DNA of 33,153 nucleotides from Muribaculaceae bacterium. Lineage in GTDB: Bacteria > Bacteroidota > Bacteroidia > Bacteroidales > Muribaculaceae. Of this stretch, positions 23,212 to 32,461 are shown in pieces. How positions within the stretch are numbered: the stretch's first letter is position 1; every line of letters begins with the position of its first letter. A model generated the notes under the pieces. The model did not search any database, had not been told where the DNA came from, and worked only from the letters and a program-made list of their open reading frames with translations. The position numbers and the translations under genes were made by a program. Location: contig JAFZPB010000180.1 in the NCBI GenBank assembly GCA_017552595.1, positions 1 through 33,153 of the forward strand. Reading direction: 5' to 3'.

Positions 23212-23248
23212 ATCGGGGCCGACTCTGACGTCGCCCCGATTTTGTTTT
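23212..23248 (+). terminator. Rho-independent terminator of the DUF4332 gene
   Basis: ATCGGGGC (23212-23219) pairs with GCCCCGAT (23233-23240), with an inner GAC/GTC extension after one bulged C. TTTGTTTT follows. The last bases of this T-run are also the -33 box of mltG. Confidence 0.88.
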
Positions 23249-23276
23249 GCGATATAACGGAATTTTCCTACCTTTG
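23246..23276 (+). promoter_or_regulatory. mltG promoter
   Basis: TTTG (23246-23249), 19 bases, then TACCTTTG (23269-23276) is a perfect match. The ATG at 23292 is 15 bases downstream, so a longer frame opening at 23247 can be ruled out as the start. Confidence 0.85.
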
Positions 23277-23291
23277 CAAAAACATTCCGCC

Positions 23292-24386
23292 ATGCCCAAA
23301 AGCCGAAAATCCAATAATCCACGTCGCAAACGCGGCTCTCGCAAGAAAATGTCGTTCCGGGCGCTCTTCGAAAAGCGTAACCGAAAGAAACTCATAGTCC
23401 TCGCCAGCGCCGCACTCGTCACGATTGTCATCGCCGTGATTATCCTCGCCTACGCTTTCAAGTCGTACCACGGCGAAGGAACGGTCATCTACTTCCCTGC
23501 CGACGCGACAAAAGAAGCAGTCGGCGACACTCTCCACAACCGGCTTGGCGAATTCGGCGACCGCACTTTCTCGTTGTGGAAAAAACTCGGCGGAAAACCC
23601 GACAGGGCTTTCGGCGCGTATCGCGTGTCAGACGGGCAAAGTGCCGCCAAACTGGCACGACGAATCTGCACCGCCACACAATCGCCCGTAAAAGTCACAT
23701 TCAATAACGTACGCACACTCGACAATCTCGCTGACCGCCTCGCCCGACAAATGGCATTCTCTCGCGAAGATTTCCTCGCCGCTGCCGACTCCGTTCTCTC
23801 CGCCGAAGGCTACAAACCTGAAGAATACCCCGCGATATTCCTCCCCGATACATACGAATTCTATTGGACAATCTCCGCTACAACTTTCGTCAATAAGATG
23901 CTCGACCAGTTCCATAGTTTTTGGAACGACGAACGCACTGCCAAAGCCAAAGTATTAGGCTTGACGCCCGTAGAAGTTTCTTCATTGGCGGCAATCGTTG
24001 AAAGCGAGTCGGCAAAACTCGACGAACGGCCAAAAATCGCACGGCTTTATCTCAACCGCCTCAAAATCGGCATGCGACTGCAGGCCGACCCGACCGTCAA
24101 ATTCGCTCTCGGCGACTTCGGCTTACGCCGACTTATGGGACGACATCTCCAAGTGGAATCACCTTACAACACGTATCGTCACGCCGGACTGACACCAGGG
24201 CCCATTAGAATACCATCAAAGCGTACTCTCGACGACGTTTTGAACGCACCGCAGCACGATTATCTTTATATGTGCGCCAAGGAAGACTTCTCTGGCTATC
24301 ACAACTTCGCCGTTGACTACCCCACTCACATGGCAAACGCCCGCCGCTACCAAGCCGAACTCAACCGCCGCGGAATATTCAAGTAA
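23292..24386 (+). CDS. mltG: Endolytic murein transglycosylase MltG (YceG family)
   Basis: This inner-membrane lytic transglycosylase cuts nascent glycan strands and is thought to set their length. The 364-residue protein has a short basic cytoplasmic N-terminus and one membrane helix at about 34-56. A LysM-like region follows (RVSDGQSAAKLARRI), then the YceG catalytic domain. The catalytic glutamate should be E237 in SLAAIVESESAKLDERPKIA. Other family motifs are LYLNRLKIGMRLQADPTVKF, YNTYRHAGLTPGPIRIPS and HNFAVDYPTHMANARRYQAEL near the C-terminus. The start was chosen from the promoter position. It is convergent with mcrC, 88 bases away. Confidence 0.94.
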   Translation: MPKSRKSNNPRRKRGSRKKMSFRALFEKRNRKKLIVLASAALVTIVIAVIILAYAFKSYHGEGTVIYFPADATKEAVGDTLHNRLGEFGDRTFSLWKKLGGKPDRAFGAYRVSDGQSAAKLARRICTATQSPVKVTFNNVRTLDNLADRLARQMAFSREDFLAAADSVLSAEGYKPEEYPAIFLPDTYEFYWTISATTFVNKMLDQFHSFWNDERTAKAKVLGLTPVEVSSLAAIVESESAKLDERPKIARLYLNRLKIGMRLQADPTVKFALGDFGLRRLMGRHLQVESPYNTYRHAGLTPGPIRIPSKRTLDDVLNAPQHDYLYMCAKEDFSGYHNFAVDYPTHMANARRYQAELNRRGIFK

Positions 24387-24474
24387 AGAGGAAAGGGGAT
24401 AGTTGAAAGATTTTTGGTCTAGTTCCTGACGGCGGTTGACTGTTCCGCGTTCCATGGTGGTACGGTCGCGATTA

Positions 24475-25515
24475 TTAGAACGAAACAAAACTATCCAATC
24501 GATTTGTAATTGTCTTAAAATCCGTATTCAAATCCAAAGTTCGTATATACAGTGTGTAACCATCTCGATGGGTTATTTGGGCATCCTCAAAATCATCTTC
24601 TTTCGTCTTGGCATATAGTAACATACCATCGACATTGTGCATGTGCTCCCTGTCGTATTCATCCACATATGTTCGAATTTGGTAAAGGTGGCTGCTTCGC
24701 AAGGTTTCTTTACGATATTGTTCCTGCAAAATTTTGGCATAGTACTTAGTGTCTATTATTAGCGTACGCCCTCTATTAGTCAAGAGTATATCTGTCTGCA
24801 TAGTAGGTAGAATAGTAGCATCTGTTGCTTCTTCAATGACGTTCCAGCCTATTTGTGCGGCGCAGGCTTTTAATGCTGGGTGTTGTTTTTTGTAATACTC
24901 CAAGACAAACCTCTCGAAGAGCCTACACATATGGTCCTCAGAAAACTCTCGCATCTTCATTTTGCCCTCTTCAGTTGTCATGAGCCATTCGCTTACAATG
25001 AAGTAACAAAGATATGTCAACATGCGATAGTTTCTATTATTACAATCAAATCGCAAAGAGTTCCAACGTATTGTATGAAGGTTTATTGGATTCACATTTT
25101 GAAAGAATAGCATCAATTGTTTCAGTTTTGCCTTTCTATCTTTCTTTACATCGGAATGCCTAATTAGTATTGTCACTGTAGTCAGAAGGATTTTGTTGTA
25201 TACATTATCTTCAGACAATTCATCATAGTCGCATACTATCTGCCGATTATTGCGCATTCTATTAGTAATGGTACCTCTGATATCTATCTTCCCCCTGACT
25301 GTCTGCATCGAATCGTTTTTTTCCACATACTCACGATAAAGGCCCTGTTTCAGCTGATAGGAAATCCCTCTTGCCAATATCTCTGCGAATAGATCATATA
25401 TGTCATCAAACTTCTCGCCCTCTATTTCTGCATAGTTATTCTGTCTAAGCTCTTGAAAAGCATAAGACAACATATAGTAAATGTTGCGAATCAGTATACC
25501 TTTATCTTCTGTCAT
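24475..25515 (-). CDS. mcrC: McrC-like nuclease subunit of a type IV restriction system
   Basis: McrC is the nuclease partner that stimulates McrB nucleotide hydrolysis and cuts DNA carrying modified bases. The 346-residue protein starts with the McrC-type N-terminal region (IRNIYYMLSYAFQELRQNNY). The central part has TVRGKIDIRGTITNR. The C-terminal PD-(D/E)xK nuclease site has D242 in MQTDILLTNRG and D255-x-K257 in LIIDTKYYAKI, with E201 in the preceding helix (LFERFVLEYY). It starts on the ATGA overlap with the mcrB stop, so the two are coupled. The base composition is visibly AT-richer than the flanking genes, indicating transfer. It is convergent with mltG. The residue assignments are by motif, not by structure. 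Confidence 0.92.
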   Translation of the reverse strand: MTEDKGILIRNIYYMLSYAFQELRQNNYAEIEGEKFDDIYDLFAEILARGISYQLKQGLYREYVEKNDSMQTVRGKIDIRGTITNRMRNNRQIVCDYDELSEDNVYNKILLTTVTILIRHSDVKKDRKAKLKQLMLFFQNVNPINLHTIRWNSLRFDCNNRNYRMLTYLCYFIVSEWLMTTEEGKMKMREFSEDHMCRLFERFVLEYYKKQHPALKACAAQIGWNVIEEATDATILPTMQTDILLTNRGRTLIIDTKYYAKILQEQYRKETLRSSHLYQIRTYVDEYDREHMHNVDGMLLYAKTKEDDFEDAQITHRDGYTLYIRTLDLNTDFKTITNRLDSFVSF

Positions 25516-28028
25516 TTGATAGCATCTCTCAGTTTTTGTGCTTCCTGATCAAACTTGCTATTATTGTCAAACCAGTATTCTCTAAGCATTGGAATAATGT
25601 CGTATTCTACGATATTCTCTAGTTTGTAGTGATGTCTCAGATTGCATAAATAACTATGGCCAATGCAGAATCCTGAGCCAAGAGAGTCATCACTCTCAAT
25701 TACCTTATTCAGTTCAACAATAGCTTTTACGAGTTTTTCAAGACTCGGGTCCCCCAATTTCTTTATTTCTTCCTTAAAGCCAATTGTATCGAAGCCCGGT
25801 TTCATTTCAAAGAAACTGAATCTACGACGGAGAGCATAATCTATCATTGCTAAAGAACGGTCAGCTGTGTTCATCATGCCTATAATATAAAGGTTTGCAG
25901 GGACAGCAAACATTTCGTCTCTATATGACAATCTTATTGGATTATCACGATAGTCGTTCTCTATCAGCATCAGCAACTCACCAAACACCTTACTCAGATT
26001 ACCACGATTGATTTCGTCAATAATGAAAAAGTACTTATGTTCTCTGTCAGCCGCTGCCTGTTTGCAGAAACGATAGAAAACACCCTTCTTCAACTCAAAA
26101 CCGCCTTCTTCATTGGGTTTATAGCCCATCACAAAATCCTCATAACTATAGTTCTGGTGGAATTGGACTTGCATCACCCGATTGTCATCCTTCTCGCCCA
26201 TCAAGGCATATGCCAATCGTTTGGCAGCAAACGTCTTTCCAATGCCAGGCGCACCTTGTAGAATCAGATTTTTCTTTCTAAGCAACAAACTTTCAAGTCG
26301 TTCATAGTCAATGTGATTAACAAAAACATCGCGAAGAAATTGATTTCTATCATAAGCTTCTTTTTTACCTTTTTTACCTTTTTTAGACAATGGATTTTCA
26401 CTACGAATCAACTCCATAATAATATCATATTCATTAGCAAGGAGCTTATAGAAAGAACCTTGTTGATTCTTCATATATTCCATATTTTCAAGTCCTGGCG
26501 TTCTCCTTATGGTATTGAAACTTATAGTCTCTGACAACGCCTCTGTTTTCTTAAATACAATAGTTTTACCATCATTAGCTTTTGAGACCACTAATAACGC
26601 AACAATTTGTTGAGAAGGTGAGGACTCATAACCAACAACGGCATCCCCTTCTTTAGCATTAAGGAAATGCTGGAATATTCTGCGTTTATGTCCCTCTTCA
26701 TTGTATAAACTATATGATTGTTCCTCACCAACATTTAGATTTGAGAGACTCCAAATCTTCGGATTTGCCACCAGCCACCAATACTGTTTATCCGTTGATA
26801 TCCCAAGTTCTGTATTTTCCTTTCTATCTATTAGGATGTTAAGTCGTTTCACATAATCACTATATTGTGTGACATTGGTTAAAGTTTTCATCGCGTGCTT
26901 ATCATCAGTTGACCATTCTCCAATATTTGTCCATTTGACTTTCCTTTTGTGCTTAAAATTCGGAAAGTTATCATCAAATAAATAATCTGATTCTACTACA
27001 CCACGTCCTACAATTTTAGTCATTCCCTTCTTAGCGAACACAATGTCTCCATGCTTCATCTCATTTGCAAACTGCCATACAGCTAATGAGTCATTCTTTG
27101 CATTGCCTTCGGTAGGATAATTTTTCTTTATTTCAATTCTCATGTCTTCTCGAGATGCATATCGAGACAAATCACCTAAAGCATCCCAACCTATGCACAT
27201 GATTCCTTCATTTATACAGAGTTCCCATTTTGAGGCCTTCTCTCCTGGAGAATATGTCCAATATACTTTAGCAGAATCTGAGGAATTTGTAGTTGTCTGA
27301 CCTGGTAAATCTCTTGTGCTCGCACCATCGTTTTCGGCATAAGCATCAAATGAAAAATCTACAAAGTTTGTGCAACTTGGAATTGATCCCATCTGAATCA
27401 ATTTATTTAGATTCTGCATAATACTATCGTATTCTATAAAAGGAACAAACCTTCCTTTAAAAGAAGCAATGCCCAATGAAGTCAATTTTTCTCTGTTATT
27501 GCCGTCTAAAGCAAGATATTTATCTGGTCGTATCCAAAATAATCCAAATGTTATATTATATCTGATAATATACTGGCCATTAAGGGCATCATAATCATTA
27601 TGAATATCCTTATCGAGTGCCGCATCTTCAAATACCATCCATAGTCTTTCAATATCACCTTCTTTTCTATCATTTCCATAGCCAATAAAGCTACTAAGCA
27701 TATTATTCATTTCAGGAACGCCATGAAAATCACTTGGAATATCTGAATCAATATCTAAAAAACTTTTAAACTTAGCACATATATCGATTTTCTTGTTGTA
27801 AGTAATTTGGCGATTAATGATGGCCAATACAGTAAACGGGTCTAAATCAGGAAGTCTTTTACCATCTGGTGCATCTTTTAGATGGGTAATGTGCCCCTGT
27901 AAATTACTATATATCCAATCAACTAACGGTGTCCTATTACTTCTATACTTCAAGAGTTTCCGTGAGAATTCTTTATAAAATGGGATCCATGTAAATTTCA
28001 TATCATTCATCAGTTCCGTTATTATCAT
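25512..28028 (-). CDS. mcrB: McrB-like AAA+ NTPase with a long N-terminal region and two EVE/PUA-like domains
   Basis: McrB forms an NTP-driven ring that recognises modified DNA and recruits McrC. This 838-residue protein is about twice the size of E. coli McrB. Residues 1-235 form a domain seen in front of McrB-like ATPases (FTWIPFYKEFSRKLLKY and FGLFWIRPDKYLALD). Residues about 255-400 look like a PUA/EVE-type reader (GDIVFAKKGMTKIVGRGVV). Residues about 415-542 look like a second EVE domain (QYWWLVANPKIWSL, GDAVVGYESS). After a lysine-rich linker (548-556) comes the AAA+ module: Walker A GAPGIGKT (592-599), Walker B FFIIDE (667-672), the McrB signature MNTADRS (719-725) and an RRRF arginine finger. 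The composition is AT-rich. The EVE calls are by pattern only. Type IV function is inferred from the family. Confidence 0.92.
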   Translation of the reverse strand: MIITELMNDMKFTWIPFYKEFSRKLLKYRSNRTPLVDWIYSNLQGHITHLKDAPDGKRLPDLDPFTVLAIINRQITYNKKIDICAKFKSFLDIDSDIPSDFHGVPEMNNMLSSFIGYGNDRKEGDIERLWMVFEDAALDKDIHNDYDALNGQYIIRYNITFGLFWIRPDKYLALDGNNREKLTSLGIASFKGRFVPFIEYDSIMQNLNKLIQMGSIPSCTNFVDFSFDAYAENDGASTRDLPGQTTTNSSDSAKVYWTYSPGEKASKWELCINEGIMCIGWDALGDLSRYASREDMRIEIKKNYPTEGNAKNDSLAVWQFANEMKHGDIVFAKKGMTKIVGRGVVESDYLFDDNFPNFKHKRKVKWTNIGEWSTDDKHAMKTLTNVTQYSDYVKRLNILIDRKENTELGISTDKQYWWLVANPKIWSLSNLNVGEEQSYSLYNEEGHKRRIFQHFLNAKEGDAVVGYESSPSQQIVALLVVSKANDGKTIVFKKTEALSETISFNTIRRTPGLENMEYMKNQQGSFYKLLANEYDIIMELIRSENPLSKKGKKGKKEAYDRNQFLRDVFVNHIDYERLESLLLRKKNLILQGAPGIGKTFAAKRLAYALMGEKDDNRVMQVQFHQNYSYEDFVMGYKPNEEGGFELKKGVFYRFCKQAAADREHKYFFIIDEINRGNLSKVFGELLMLIENDYRDNPIRLSYRDEMFAVPANLYIIGMMNTADRSLAMIDYALRRRFSFFEMKPGFDTIGFKEEIKKLGDPSLEKLVKAIVELNKVIESDDSLGSGFCIGHSYLCNLRHHYKLENIVEYDIIPMLREYWFDNNSKFDQEAQKLRDAIK
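26361..26384 (-). repeat. 9-bp repeat with three T6 runs inside mcrB
   Basis: Runs of six T's lie at 26361, 26370 and 26379, with a period of 9 (TTTTTTACC twice, then TTTTTTAGA). On the coding strand they are A6 runs encoding the KKGKKGKK linker between the second EVE domain and the AAA+ module. Confidence 0.9.
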
Positions 28029-28127
28029 TTTGTGGTAATTATCAATAATCTTTACCCATTAATCACCAATATGTAATTGTAATGCTCAAATAAACTTAAA
28101 ATTTATATTCAATATGGCAGGTATTTC

Positions 28128-29306
28128 CTATTTGGGGTTGTACGGTGGTGGAGTGGCGGTAGTTTCGGTGTCCGATGCTGTTTCAGGGGAGGATTCGGAT
28201 TTTTCTTTCTCTTTTTCGCCGATCACATATTTGTTGTAGTACGACAGTAAAAGGGTGGTCATCGGCAGGGCGATGATTAGTCCGATGAAGCCGAGCAAAT
28301 AGCCCCAAATCGACAACGACAACAAGATTATCACTGGATTCAATCCCATTGCCTTGCCCATTATCTTAGGCACGAGGAAGAAGTCCTGAATAATCTGTAT
28401 GACGATGTAAACGAGCATCGCCTCGCCGAACATTATCCAGAACGAACCGCCGGTGTCGACAGAATAAACCACGCAGAGAATCAACGTGGGAATGATTGAA
28501 ATCAGTTGGAGATACGGCACGAGATTGAGGAACCCGATGAAGATGCCGAGGGCAATCGCCATGGGCATGCCGATAATCCAAAAGCCGATGCAGAACAATA
28601 TGCCGACAATGAAGGCTACAATCGCCTGCCCACGGAAATATTGGTTCATGCTATCACGTACGTCGGATGTAATTTTCATCACCGCACCGCGATATTTCTT
28701 CGGGACGAGACTGCGAAGCCACCCGAAGAATCGATTGAAATCAATCATGATGAAGATGAGGTAAATCATGATGAAGAACCAACCGATAATGCCCATTATG
28801 ACGCTTATTCCAACGGAAATCACGCCGATGGTGGTTGCGAAGAACGACTTCACGATTTCCCACCATTCGTTTCCGGTGAACATATTCTTAAAGTAGTCAA
28901 GGTCGATATAATCGGCAATGAAGTCTTTGATGGCATTGATTAACGGTCCGTCGGCTGCCGACGACATATACCGTCCCAACAGCGACAATATTTCACGGAA
29001 TTCGCTGAACAACAACGGAATCAAAACCACAAGCAAAAGGATTACCACCGCCGTGGATTCAAGCAACGTAAGAAACACGGCCCCTACCCTGCCTTTCTCG
29101 TGAGTTATGCGCCTGTTTAGTTGAACTAGCGGTTCAAGCATATAGGCGATGAAGCATGCGAGAATGAACGGCCATAGCACTCCGCGAAGGATATACACCA
29201 GCCATATAATCAGCACCGTAAGGAAGAAACCGCCGACGGCACGGAAGATGCGTGTCAAAGTGTCGGGGCGTTCAGCATTATCTTGAGGTAATTTGTTATC
29301 TGCCAT
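28128..29306 (-). CDS. AI-2E transporter family (PerM/YdiK-like) membrane protein
   Basis: This is a multi-pass inner-membrane protein of the AI-2E/PerM family; members export small molecules or act as ion antiporters, and the substrate here is unknown. From the ATG at 29306 (MADNKLPQDNAERPDTLTRI) it has 392 residues. The frame runs further upstream through the promoter, which I exclude. Hydrophobic stretches include FLTVLIIWLVYILRGVLWPF, SVIMGIIGWFFIMIYLIFIM and FIGFLNLVPYLQLISIIPTL. The conserved GFLNLVPYLQ and PKIMGKAMGLNPVIILLSL segments are typical of the family. The Pro/Thr-rich charged tail is cytoplasmic. It lies on the same strand as mcrB but is separated by 100 bases. Confidence 0.9.
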   Translation of the reverse strand: MADNKLPQDNAERPDTLTRIFRAVGGFFLTVLIIWLVYILRGVLWPFILACFIAYMLEPLVQLNRRITHEKGRVGAVFLTLLESTAVVILLLVVLIPLLFSEFREILSLLGRYMSSAADGPLINAIKDFIADYIDLDYFKNMFTGNEWWEIVKSFFATTIGVISVGISVIMGIIGWFFIMIYLIFIMIDFNRFFGWLRSLVPKKYRGAVMKITSDVRDSMNQYFRGQAIVAFIVGILFCIGFWIIGMPMAIALGIFIGFLNLVPYLQLISIIPTLILCVVYSVDTGGSFWIMFGEAMLVYIVIQIIQDFFLVPKIMGKAMGLNPVIILLSLSIWGYLLGFIGLIIALPMTTLLLSYYNKYVIGEKEKEKSESSPETASDTETTATPPPYNPK

Positions 29307-29335
29307 AGATTCAATAAAATTTATCTTTTCAGCCA

Positions 29336-29369
29336 CGAAATTAGCAAAAAAATTTTTAATTGCGTCAAA
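29336..29369 (-). promoter_or_regulatory. Promoter of the AI-2E-family gene
   Basis: On the minus strand TTTG (29369-29366), 22 bases, then TAATTTCG (29343-29336), one mismatch from TAnnTTTG. The ATG at 29306 is 29 bases downstream. Confidence 0.55.
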
Positions 29370-29383
29370 AATTACTACCTTTG
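29353..29383 (+). promoter_or_regulatory. Promoter of the MFS transporter gene
   Basis: TACCTTTG (29376-29383) is a full -7 match. The expected -33 position holds TTTT (29353-29356), one base off. It overlaps the divergent promoter on the other strand. The ATG is at 29438. Confidence 0.6.
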
Positions 29384-29437
29384 TGTGATAAAATTGCAAC
29401 ATTAACAGAATTATTAACTAAAAAGACTATTATATCT

Positions 29438-31851: not shown

Positions 31852-31883
31852 TTTGGTGGATAGCAGAGAATTTTGTAATTTCG
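31852..31883 (+). promoter_or_regulatory. Promoter of the secreted protein-DsbD operon
   Basis: TTTG (31852-31855), 20 bases, then TAATTTCG (31876-31883), one mismatch from consensus. The ATG at 31907 is 23 bases downstream. An in-frame alternative start at 31853 overlaps this promoter and is rejected. Confidence 0.65.
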
Positions 31884-31906
31884 CAAAATATTATAACAAA
31901 GATTTC

Positions 31907-32461
31907 ATGAACAGAATTTTTTTATCATCAACTATTCTCTTGTGTTTGGGGCTTGGCCTATTTGCCCATGACTTAAATAATAATGAGAAAACAGATGAGT
32001 ATTTTTTTCAACGTAAAAGACTATCCGAACTGATATCAGATAATCAGTTAGCAGACAGTTTAAATGGAAAAGCATATTGTGGCTATTATAACTCAAACCA
32101 CTACATAGGCTCATGGGTTATTGTCTCATTAGAAAATAATTGTTATAAAGTTTATTATCACCGGAATCTTGATGATGTTATGTATTATTCAAAAACATTT
32201 TCACTACAAGATGAAAAGTTGAATGCTCTTTTTTCTTTTGGAAATGACCATAACTCCTATGACAGAAGAATAGATAACACATATACGCCTTTTTGTTTTT
32301 ATTTTGCCATTTTTGATGCTGAACATAATTTAAGATTTGAATGGAATCAAAGCACAATGACATTAAAAAAGGCCACTGAAGATCCTGCCAAAGTTTTCGT
32401 TCCAATATGTTGGGAAATTTTACTTCCAGAATATTTTTCCGACAAAGATTCTAATAAATGA
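31907..32461 (+). CDS. AT-rich secreted protein of unknown function
   Basis: This is a 184-residue protein with a signal peptide (MNRIFLSSTILLCLGLGLFA, mature from about H21). The mature part has many Asn, Tyr and Asp residues, for example GKAYCGYYNSNHYIGSWVIV. Further on are YYHRNLDDVMYYSKTFSL and a C-terminal VPICWEILLPEYFSDKD. Two cysteines may pair in the periplasm. I recognise no family. The gene is visibly AT-richer than its neighbours, which suggests recent acquisition. Its stop overlaps the start of the DsbD-domain gene (ATGA), so it is translationally coupled to a thiol-redox operon. It might be a client of that operon, but this is inference. Confidence 0.72.
   Translation: MNRIFLSSTILLCLGLGLFAHDLNNNEKTDEYFFQRKRLSELISDNQLADSLNGKAYCGYYNSNHYIGSWVIVSLENNCYKVYYHRNLDDVMYYSKTFSLQDEKLNALFSFGNDHNSYDRRIDNTYTPFCFYFAIFDAEHNLRFEWNQSTMTLKKATEDPAKVFVPICWEILLPEYFSDKDSNK

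Follow-up and report, generated by a model that had tools for sequence, protein, structure and literature searches.

How many kinds of modified DNA can a single McrB chain read, and how does such a chain come to be put together? The question is raised by a pair of genes, mcrB and mcrC, found in a Muribaculaceae bacterium (GCA_017552595.1, contig JAFZPB010000180.1) within a stretch of 33,153 nucleotides, which is referred to here as the window. Reader modules set which modified phages a type IV restriction system lets a bacterium resist. The pair is best explained as an McrBC restriction system of type IV (modification-dependent) that was acquired laterally and carries three different readers on one McrB chain, a reading to which a probability of roughly 0.65 is given.

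An intact McrB motor and McrC nuclease

The mcrB gene (25512..28028, minus strand) encodes a protein of 838 amino acids (aa) in which the McrB GTPase is preceded by an N-terminal module, a YTH-like and an EVE domain. It is followed by mcrC (24475..25515, minus strand), which encodes the PD-(D/E)xK nuclease subunit of 346 aa; the stop codon of mcrB and the start codon of mcrC overlap as ATGA (25512..25515, minus strand), an arrangement indicative of translational coupling. The gene pair and its coupling are thus as the original prediction described them, on the evidence of open reading frames (ORFs), profile matches and motifs. The only meaningful Pfam matches on McrB are EVE (residues 415-540) and AAA_5. 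The NCBIfam McrB model matches residues 529-833 with an E-value of 1.3e-84 and 284.6 bits, below the model cut-off of 637, as expected since the N-terminus differs from that of the model, and the GTPase region (AAA+, residues 556-838; 25515..26363, minus strand) matches the E. coli McrB structures at 4e-82. Pattern searches located Walker A (GAPGIGKT, 592), Walker B (FFIIDE, 667) and the NxxD motif (MNTAD, 719) in McrB, and TDI (241) and DTK (255) in McrC, which also scores above the NCBIfam equivalog cut-off (NF007277, 351.5 versus 338 bits). Consequently, the locus has two of the features that define a type IV McrBC system, a GTPase bearing the Walker A, Walker B and NxxD motifs and a PD-(D/E)xK McrC in the same operon, and the motifs bear out the claim of an AAA+ motor paired with a nuclease whose D...DxK signature is intact.

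Three different modules ahead of the motor

The regions ahead of the GTPase were aligned with relatives translated from their loci, and two structure models were built, of residues 1-241 and 245-550. The second model has a predicted local distance difference test score (pLDDT) of 92.5 and a predicted template modelling score (pTM) of 0.61, and shows two confident domains whose mutual orientation is loose. Its C-terminal half adopts an EVE fold, with matches to 2ar1 (Z 18.5, root-mean-square deviation (rmsd) 2.3), 5j3e (Z 16.1) and 6yex (Z 12.1), which include THYN1 with 5-methylcytosine DNA (Z 16.1) and VcaM4I (Z 12.1); Pfam EVE scores 28.5 bits against a cut-off of 23. Its N-terminal half adopts a YTH fold (YTHDF2, Z 11.2, rmsd 2.8 over 119 aligned residues), and the region also matches PADLOC PDC-S02. 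According to the models, residues 412-545 (26394..26795, minus strand) are a true EVE domain and residues 252-408 (26805..27275, minus strand) are YTH-like, belonging to a sister family within the PUA superfamily. Residues 252-408 gave no Pfam EVE match in the window protein and a match in one of 38 relatives (E 0.048), and the YTH-like profile found no sequence match in the PDB; it has been pointed out that prokaryotic YTH-like and EVE domains are hard to distinguish from sequence (PMC7641849). Conserved aromatic residues of the YTH-like domain, which may be candidates for an N6-methyladenine cage, are W257, W268, W281, Y349 and W366. The two EVE-type sensors expected from the sequence are therefore found as two PUA-class folds, of which only the second is EVE while the first matches YTH domains. 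An origin of the two by recent tandem duplication of an EVE domain is ruled out, because their profiles align over 12 columns only and their folds match different families.

The separate N-terminal domain of 235 residues that had been proposed was recovered as a confident, all-helical model (residues 1-241, pLDDT 92.7, pTM 0.90), the module itself being assigned to residues 1-235 (27324..28028, minus strand). Its top Foldseek matches are mostly HhH-GPD DNA glycosylases, with insignificant E-values, and upon structural re-alignment all 24 listed entries with a Z of at least 2 are HhH-GPD glycosylases. The best match is TmOgg (Z 6.3, 155 of 209 residues, rmsd 4.1), a middling score for a helical domain, as a match of such a size between helical domains may be a general one. 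The profile search suggested for residues 1-235 was run and returned no Pfam family, PF00730 included, and no significant match to PDB sequences or viral structures. With hhalign the profile of the module gave P values of 0.049 (EndoIII) and 0.071 (OGG2), neither of them significant, in a comparison that is underpowered, given that the true pair EndoIII-OGG2 reaches just 0.009. In a profile hidden Markov model (HMM) search with decoy ranking, glycosylases came at ranks 6, 9 and 23 among 650 ORFs lacking the module, which is at most suggestive and not significant. The predicted fold is nevertheless probably of the HhH-GPD glycosylase-like kind.

Architecture and module exchange among relatives

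A scan of genome contigs yielded 80 relatives. Apart from the window, HMM or BLAST matches place the order N-terminal module, YTH-like, EVE, GTPase at 13 loci, most of them in rumen and gut Prevotella or other Bacteroidales and one in a metagenome-assembled genome of Chloracidobacterium (L033). A double reader is therefore no novelty as such, and a McrB-family protein with tandem EVE domains, PcdA, has been published (PMC10602043). Among the other relatives, which are mostly Bacillota, the commonest arrangement is N-terminal module, YTH-like and GTPase, with dozens of proteins having the first two modules without EVE. Further arrangements are YTH-EVE-GTPase, EVE-GTPase with other N-termini, and YTH-GTPase alone in proteins of about 475 aa (L065, L071). 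One 986-aa McrB (L027:5016-7973) carries the N-terminal module, an extra weak YTH-like copy, a YTH-like domain, EVE and the GTPase, that is, four candidate readers.

Regarding mobile elements, no plasmid or phage record covered 80% of the sensor. The human-gut phage NatCom_35866 (PV036449.1, L143:3444-7362) does encode an EVE-McrB of 952 aa (EVE 53%, GTPase 57% identity) and a McrC of 356 aa (47%); both genes are annotated as hypothetical and lie two genes after a DNA methyltransferase.

Module identities, compared pairwise among 13 full-architecture proteins, differ strongly by module. The window and L018 are 52% identical in the N-terminal module, 79% in YTH, 46% in EVE, 72% in the GTPase and 84% in McrC, whereas the window and L025 are 48% identical in YTH, 67% in EVE and 86% in McrC. 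The tree of the N-terminal module groups the window with L026 (support 98/96), which is rejected by motor plus McrC (p 1.5e-4), that of YTH groups it with L018 (96/94), which is rejected by the N-terminal module (p 2.8e-32), and that of motor plus McrC joins L018 and L025 (95/92), which is rejected by YTH (p 2.8e-122); these clades were picked after the identity table had been seen, so the p-values are optimistic, and the conflict between the sequence trees is itself clear. Since the trees of the readers disagree among themselves as well as with that of the motor and nuclease, the readers have been swapped among relatives, and the sensor looks like an exchangeable rack for modified phage DNA.

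Must the readers then bind jointly, so that, as in an AND-gate, restriction would require two marks on the DNA or marks on both of its strands? The YTH-like and EVE domains do lie adjacent in one chain, and most loci with an EVE reader keep the YTH-like one too, but relatives with either reader alone exist, down to the short YTH-GTPase proteins, and the readers have different histories. As natural relatives carry single readers, obligate joint binding is considered unlikely. The relatives that carry the N-terminal module with YTH, YTH with EVE, EVE behind different N-termini, or only YTH imply that no reader needs the others, and an intact motor, an intact nuclease and exchangeable readers together favour type IV restriction with readers that may act independently.

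How the readers might act

In such a system, the EVE domain would flip out 5-methylcytosine or 5-hydroxymethylcytosine, the bases that the EVE domain of VcaM4I binds by base flipping (PMC7897488), and the YTH-like domain would flip out a second kind of modified base, for which the precedent is N6-methyladenine, bound in DNA by the YTH domain of Thermococcus gammatolerans McrB (PMC7641849). The glycosylase-like N-terminal domain would add a module that probes bases or bends DNA. Once any single reader has bound, the McrB GTPase ring would be loaded, McrC would stimulate GTP-driven translocation and its nuclease would then cut, the readers being exchangeable cassettes that act largely independently. 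What the sequences themselves show is the gene pair with its motifs, the predicted folds, the gain, loss and exchange of modules and the empty site in relatives, whereas the base specificities, the independence of the readers and the anti-phage activity are inferred. Several points weigh against this interpretation: the structural score of the N-terminal module is middling, its profile comparisons with glycosylases are not significant, and the clades of the tree tests were chosen after the fact.

Could the N-terminal module instead work as a DNA glycosylase and excise a modified base, so that base removal is combined with McrBC cleavage? Apart from the predicted fold, D175 is conserved in 50 of 54 members of the module and precedes a helix (176-184), a position at which HhH-GPD enzymes have their catalytic Asp, the presumed counterpart of D175. 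Anti-phage glycosylases of the uracil-glycosylase superfamily exist (PMC11078745, PMC13160076). On the other hand, sequence comparisons do not confirm homology to glycosylases, the equivalence of D175 to the catalytic Asp is one of presumed position, and the hairpin-like GNGNSK motif, which lies 17 residues before D175 in most Bacillota members, is absent from the clade of the window. Enzyme activity of the module is accordingly regarded as improbable, and the combined excision and cleavage system as quite unlikely. The chances are about even that a large and widespread McrB branch places an HhH-GPD-derived module ahead of a YTH or an EVE reader as a base-flipping sensor of phage base modifications (or even an enzyme acting on them), with readers swapped as cassettes. 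If true, an N-terminal module repurposed from a repair glycosylase would be a reader class undescribed in the McrB literature searched.

In one protein the module is joined to an FRG domain in place of McrB (L016:538-2064, about 26% identity). On plasmid pR997 of Proteus mirabilis, within a mobilizable element, type I restriction genes and a gene of the BstXI family are followed downstream by an McrB with the N-terminal module and its McrC (L142:5518-9697).

Insertion between yceG and an AI-2E transporter gene

The pair lies between yceG (mltG; 23247..24386, plus strand; Pfam YceG, 6.8e-68) on the left and an AI-2E family transporter gene (28128..29402, minus strand; Pfam PF01594, 7.9e-46) on the right. 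In 16 family genomes these two genes lie next to each other in convergent orientation, separated by 27-363 bp (gap coordinates were obtained for all 16, and 11 of them were checked on their sequence), and the corresponding distance in the window is 3741 bp (24387..28127). Of 198 family genomes, 8 have recognisable parts of the sensor, among them that of the window, whose copy is the only one with the full set; the other seven have parts in different combinations, so the pair is far from being present in all related genomes. In the sister genome G029, the only other member of the genus compared, yceG has next to it, where the window has its McrBC, the genes for a CorA-like membrane protein of 493 aa and for Cas13b (NF038190, E 5e-146), the latter gene being cut by the contig end (L102:3-4640, contig C10). 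The insertion junction in G029 is inferred, because the AI-2E gene there extends to the end of a different contig. The CorA-like partner of this Cas13b may merit separate attention, and elsewhere G029 has a second McrBC (L101:10287-14095) with an unrelated N-terminus and the same EVE (50%), GTPase (69%) and McrC core. The longer gaps between yceG and the AI-2E gene in G094 and G025 hold genes that look ordinary by eye (in G094, for example, dihydroorotase-like and lipid-A-disaccharide-synthase-like ORFs) and were for this reason not counted as defence insertions. The site has the look of a hot spot at which defence genes insert. What the original prediction took for a defence island is better described as such a hot spot with a single system.

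Was the pair recently acquired, or has it long been inherited vertically and is simply rich in AT? As predicted, it is richer in AT than both flanks (36.5% guanine-cytosine (GC), with 36.0% in mcrB and 37.7% in mcrC, versus 50.0% in the left and 45.7% in the right part of the window). However, most other Bacteroidales hosts have AT-rich copies too (about 34-43% GC), so that composition by itself argues only weakly for transfer. Lateral acquisition is instead supported by the site that is empty in the 16 family genomes and by Cas13b beside yceG in the sister species, and together with the sparse and differing sensor combinations in the family this makes vertical inheritance very unlikely. No integrase or transposase was found among the scanned window genes, repeats around the pair are weak and chance-like, and promoter and terminator scans gave counts at chance level. 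Among the major ORFs of the window, only one is lower in GC than mcrB and mcrC, a 202-aa ORF (31853-32461, plus strand; 30.4% GC) which has no Pfam match and overlaps an ORF with a DsbD_N domain.

That the pair was recruited to a housekeeping function, in the way that staphylococcal cell division recruited PcdA, is highly improbable, because the P-loop of PcdA is degenerate and no McrC is linked to it, whereas GTPase and McrC are intact here, and the pair is absent from relatives.

Comparison with known systems

Fusions of McrB with EVE and with YTH are known, as is an McrB-family protein with EVE domains in tandem. The combination of N-terminal module, YTH-like and EVE, the swapping of modules and a glycosylase-like N-terminal module were not found in the literature searched; no relevant paper linking McrB to HhH-GPD came up, and glycosylases do not figure in the main text of the two McrB/EVE surveys, supplements aside. 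An McrB chain with three reader classes, belonging to a family in which readers recombine apart from the motor, offers a natural series for testing readers alone and together.

The N-terminal module probably resembles OGG2, EndoIII and MutY (HhH-GPD) in overall fold (Z up to 6.3) and in the conserved Asp at a helix start, and differs from them in its fusion to McrB and in the lack of significant sequence similarity. CoCoNuTs (PMC11090510) are likewise McrBC-derived, with a multi-domain McrB that sometimes includes a YTH-like domain, but their GTPases carry NxD whereas the McrB of the window carries NxxD. PcdA of Staphylococcus (PMC10602043) is a McrB-family AAA+ protein which also has two tandem PUA-class domains; both of these are EVE, however, and it acts in cell division with a degenerate NTPase and without McrC, unlike the window, where Walker A and McrC are intact. 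E. coli K-12 McrBC shares the McrB GTPase with NxxD, the McrC partner and the mcrB-mcrC operon order, and has one small DUF3578 (ADAM) reader where the McrB of the window has three other modules and no DUF3578 match. The EVE-McrB fusions surveyed by Bell et al. (2020) (PMC7641849), reported there to be most frequent in Firmicutes and Bacteroidetes and often to have additional domains, have EVE directly ahead of the McrB GTPase as here; the order of N-terminal module, YTH-like and EVE is not named in the main text of that survey, supplements aside. Finally, Thermococcus gammatolerans McrB (PMC7641849, PMC7897488) also has a YTH-class reader fused to McrB, which is its single reader, whereas the YTH-like domain of the window is the middle one of three.

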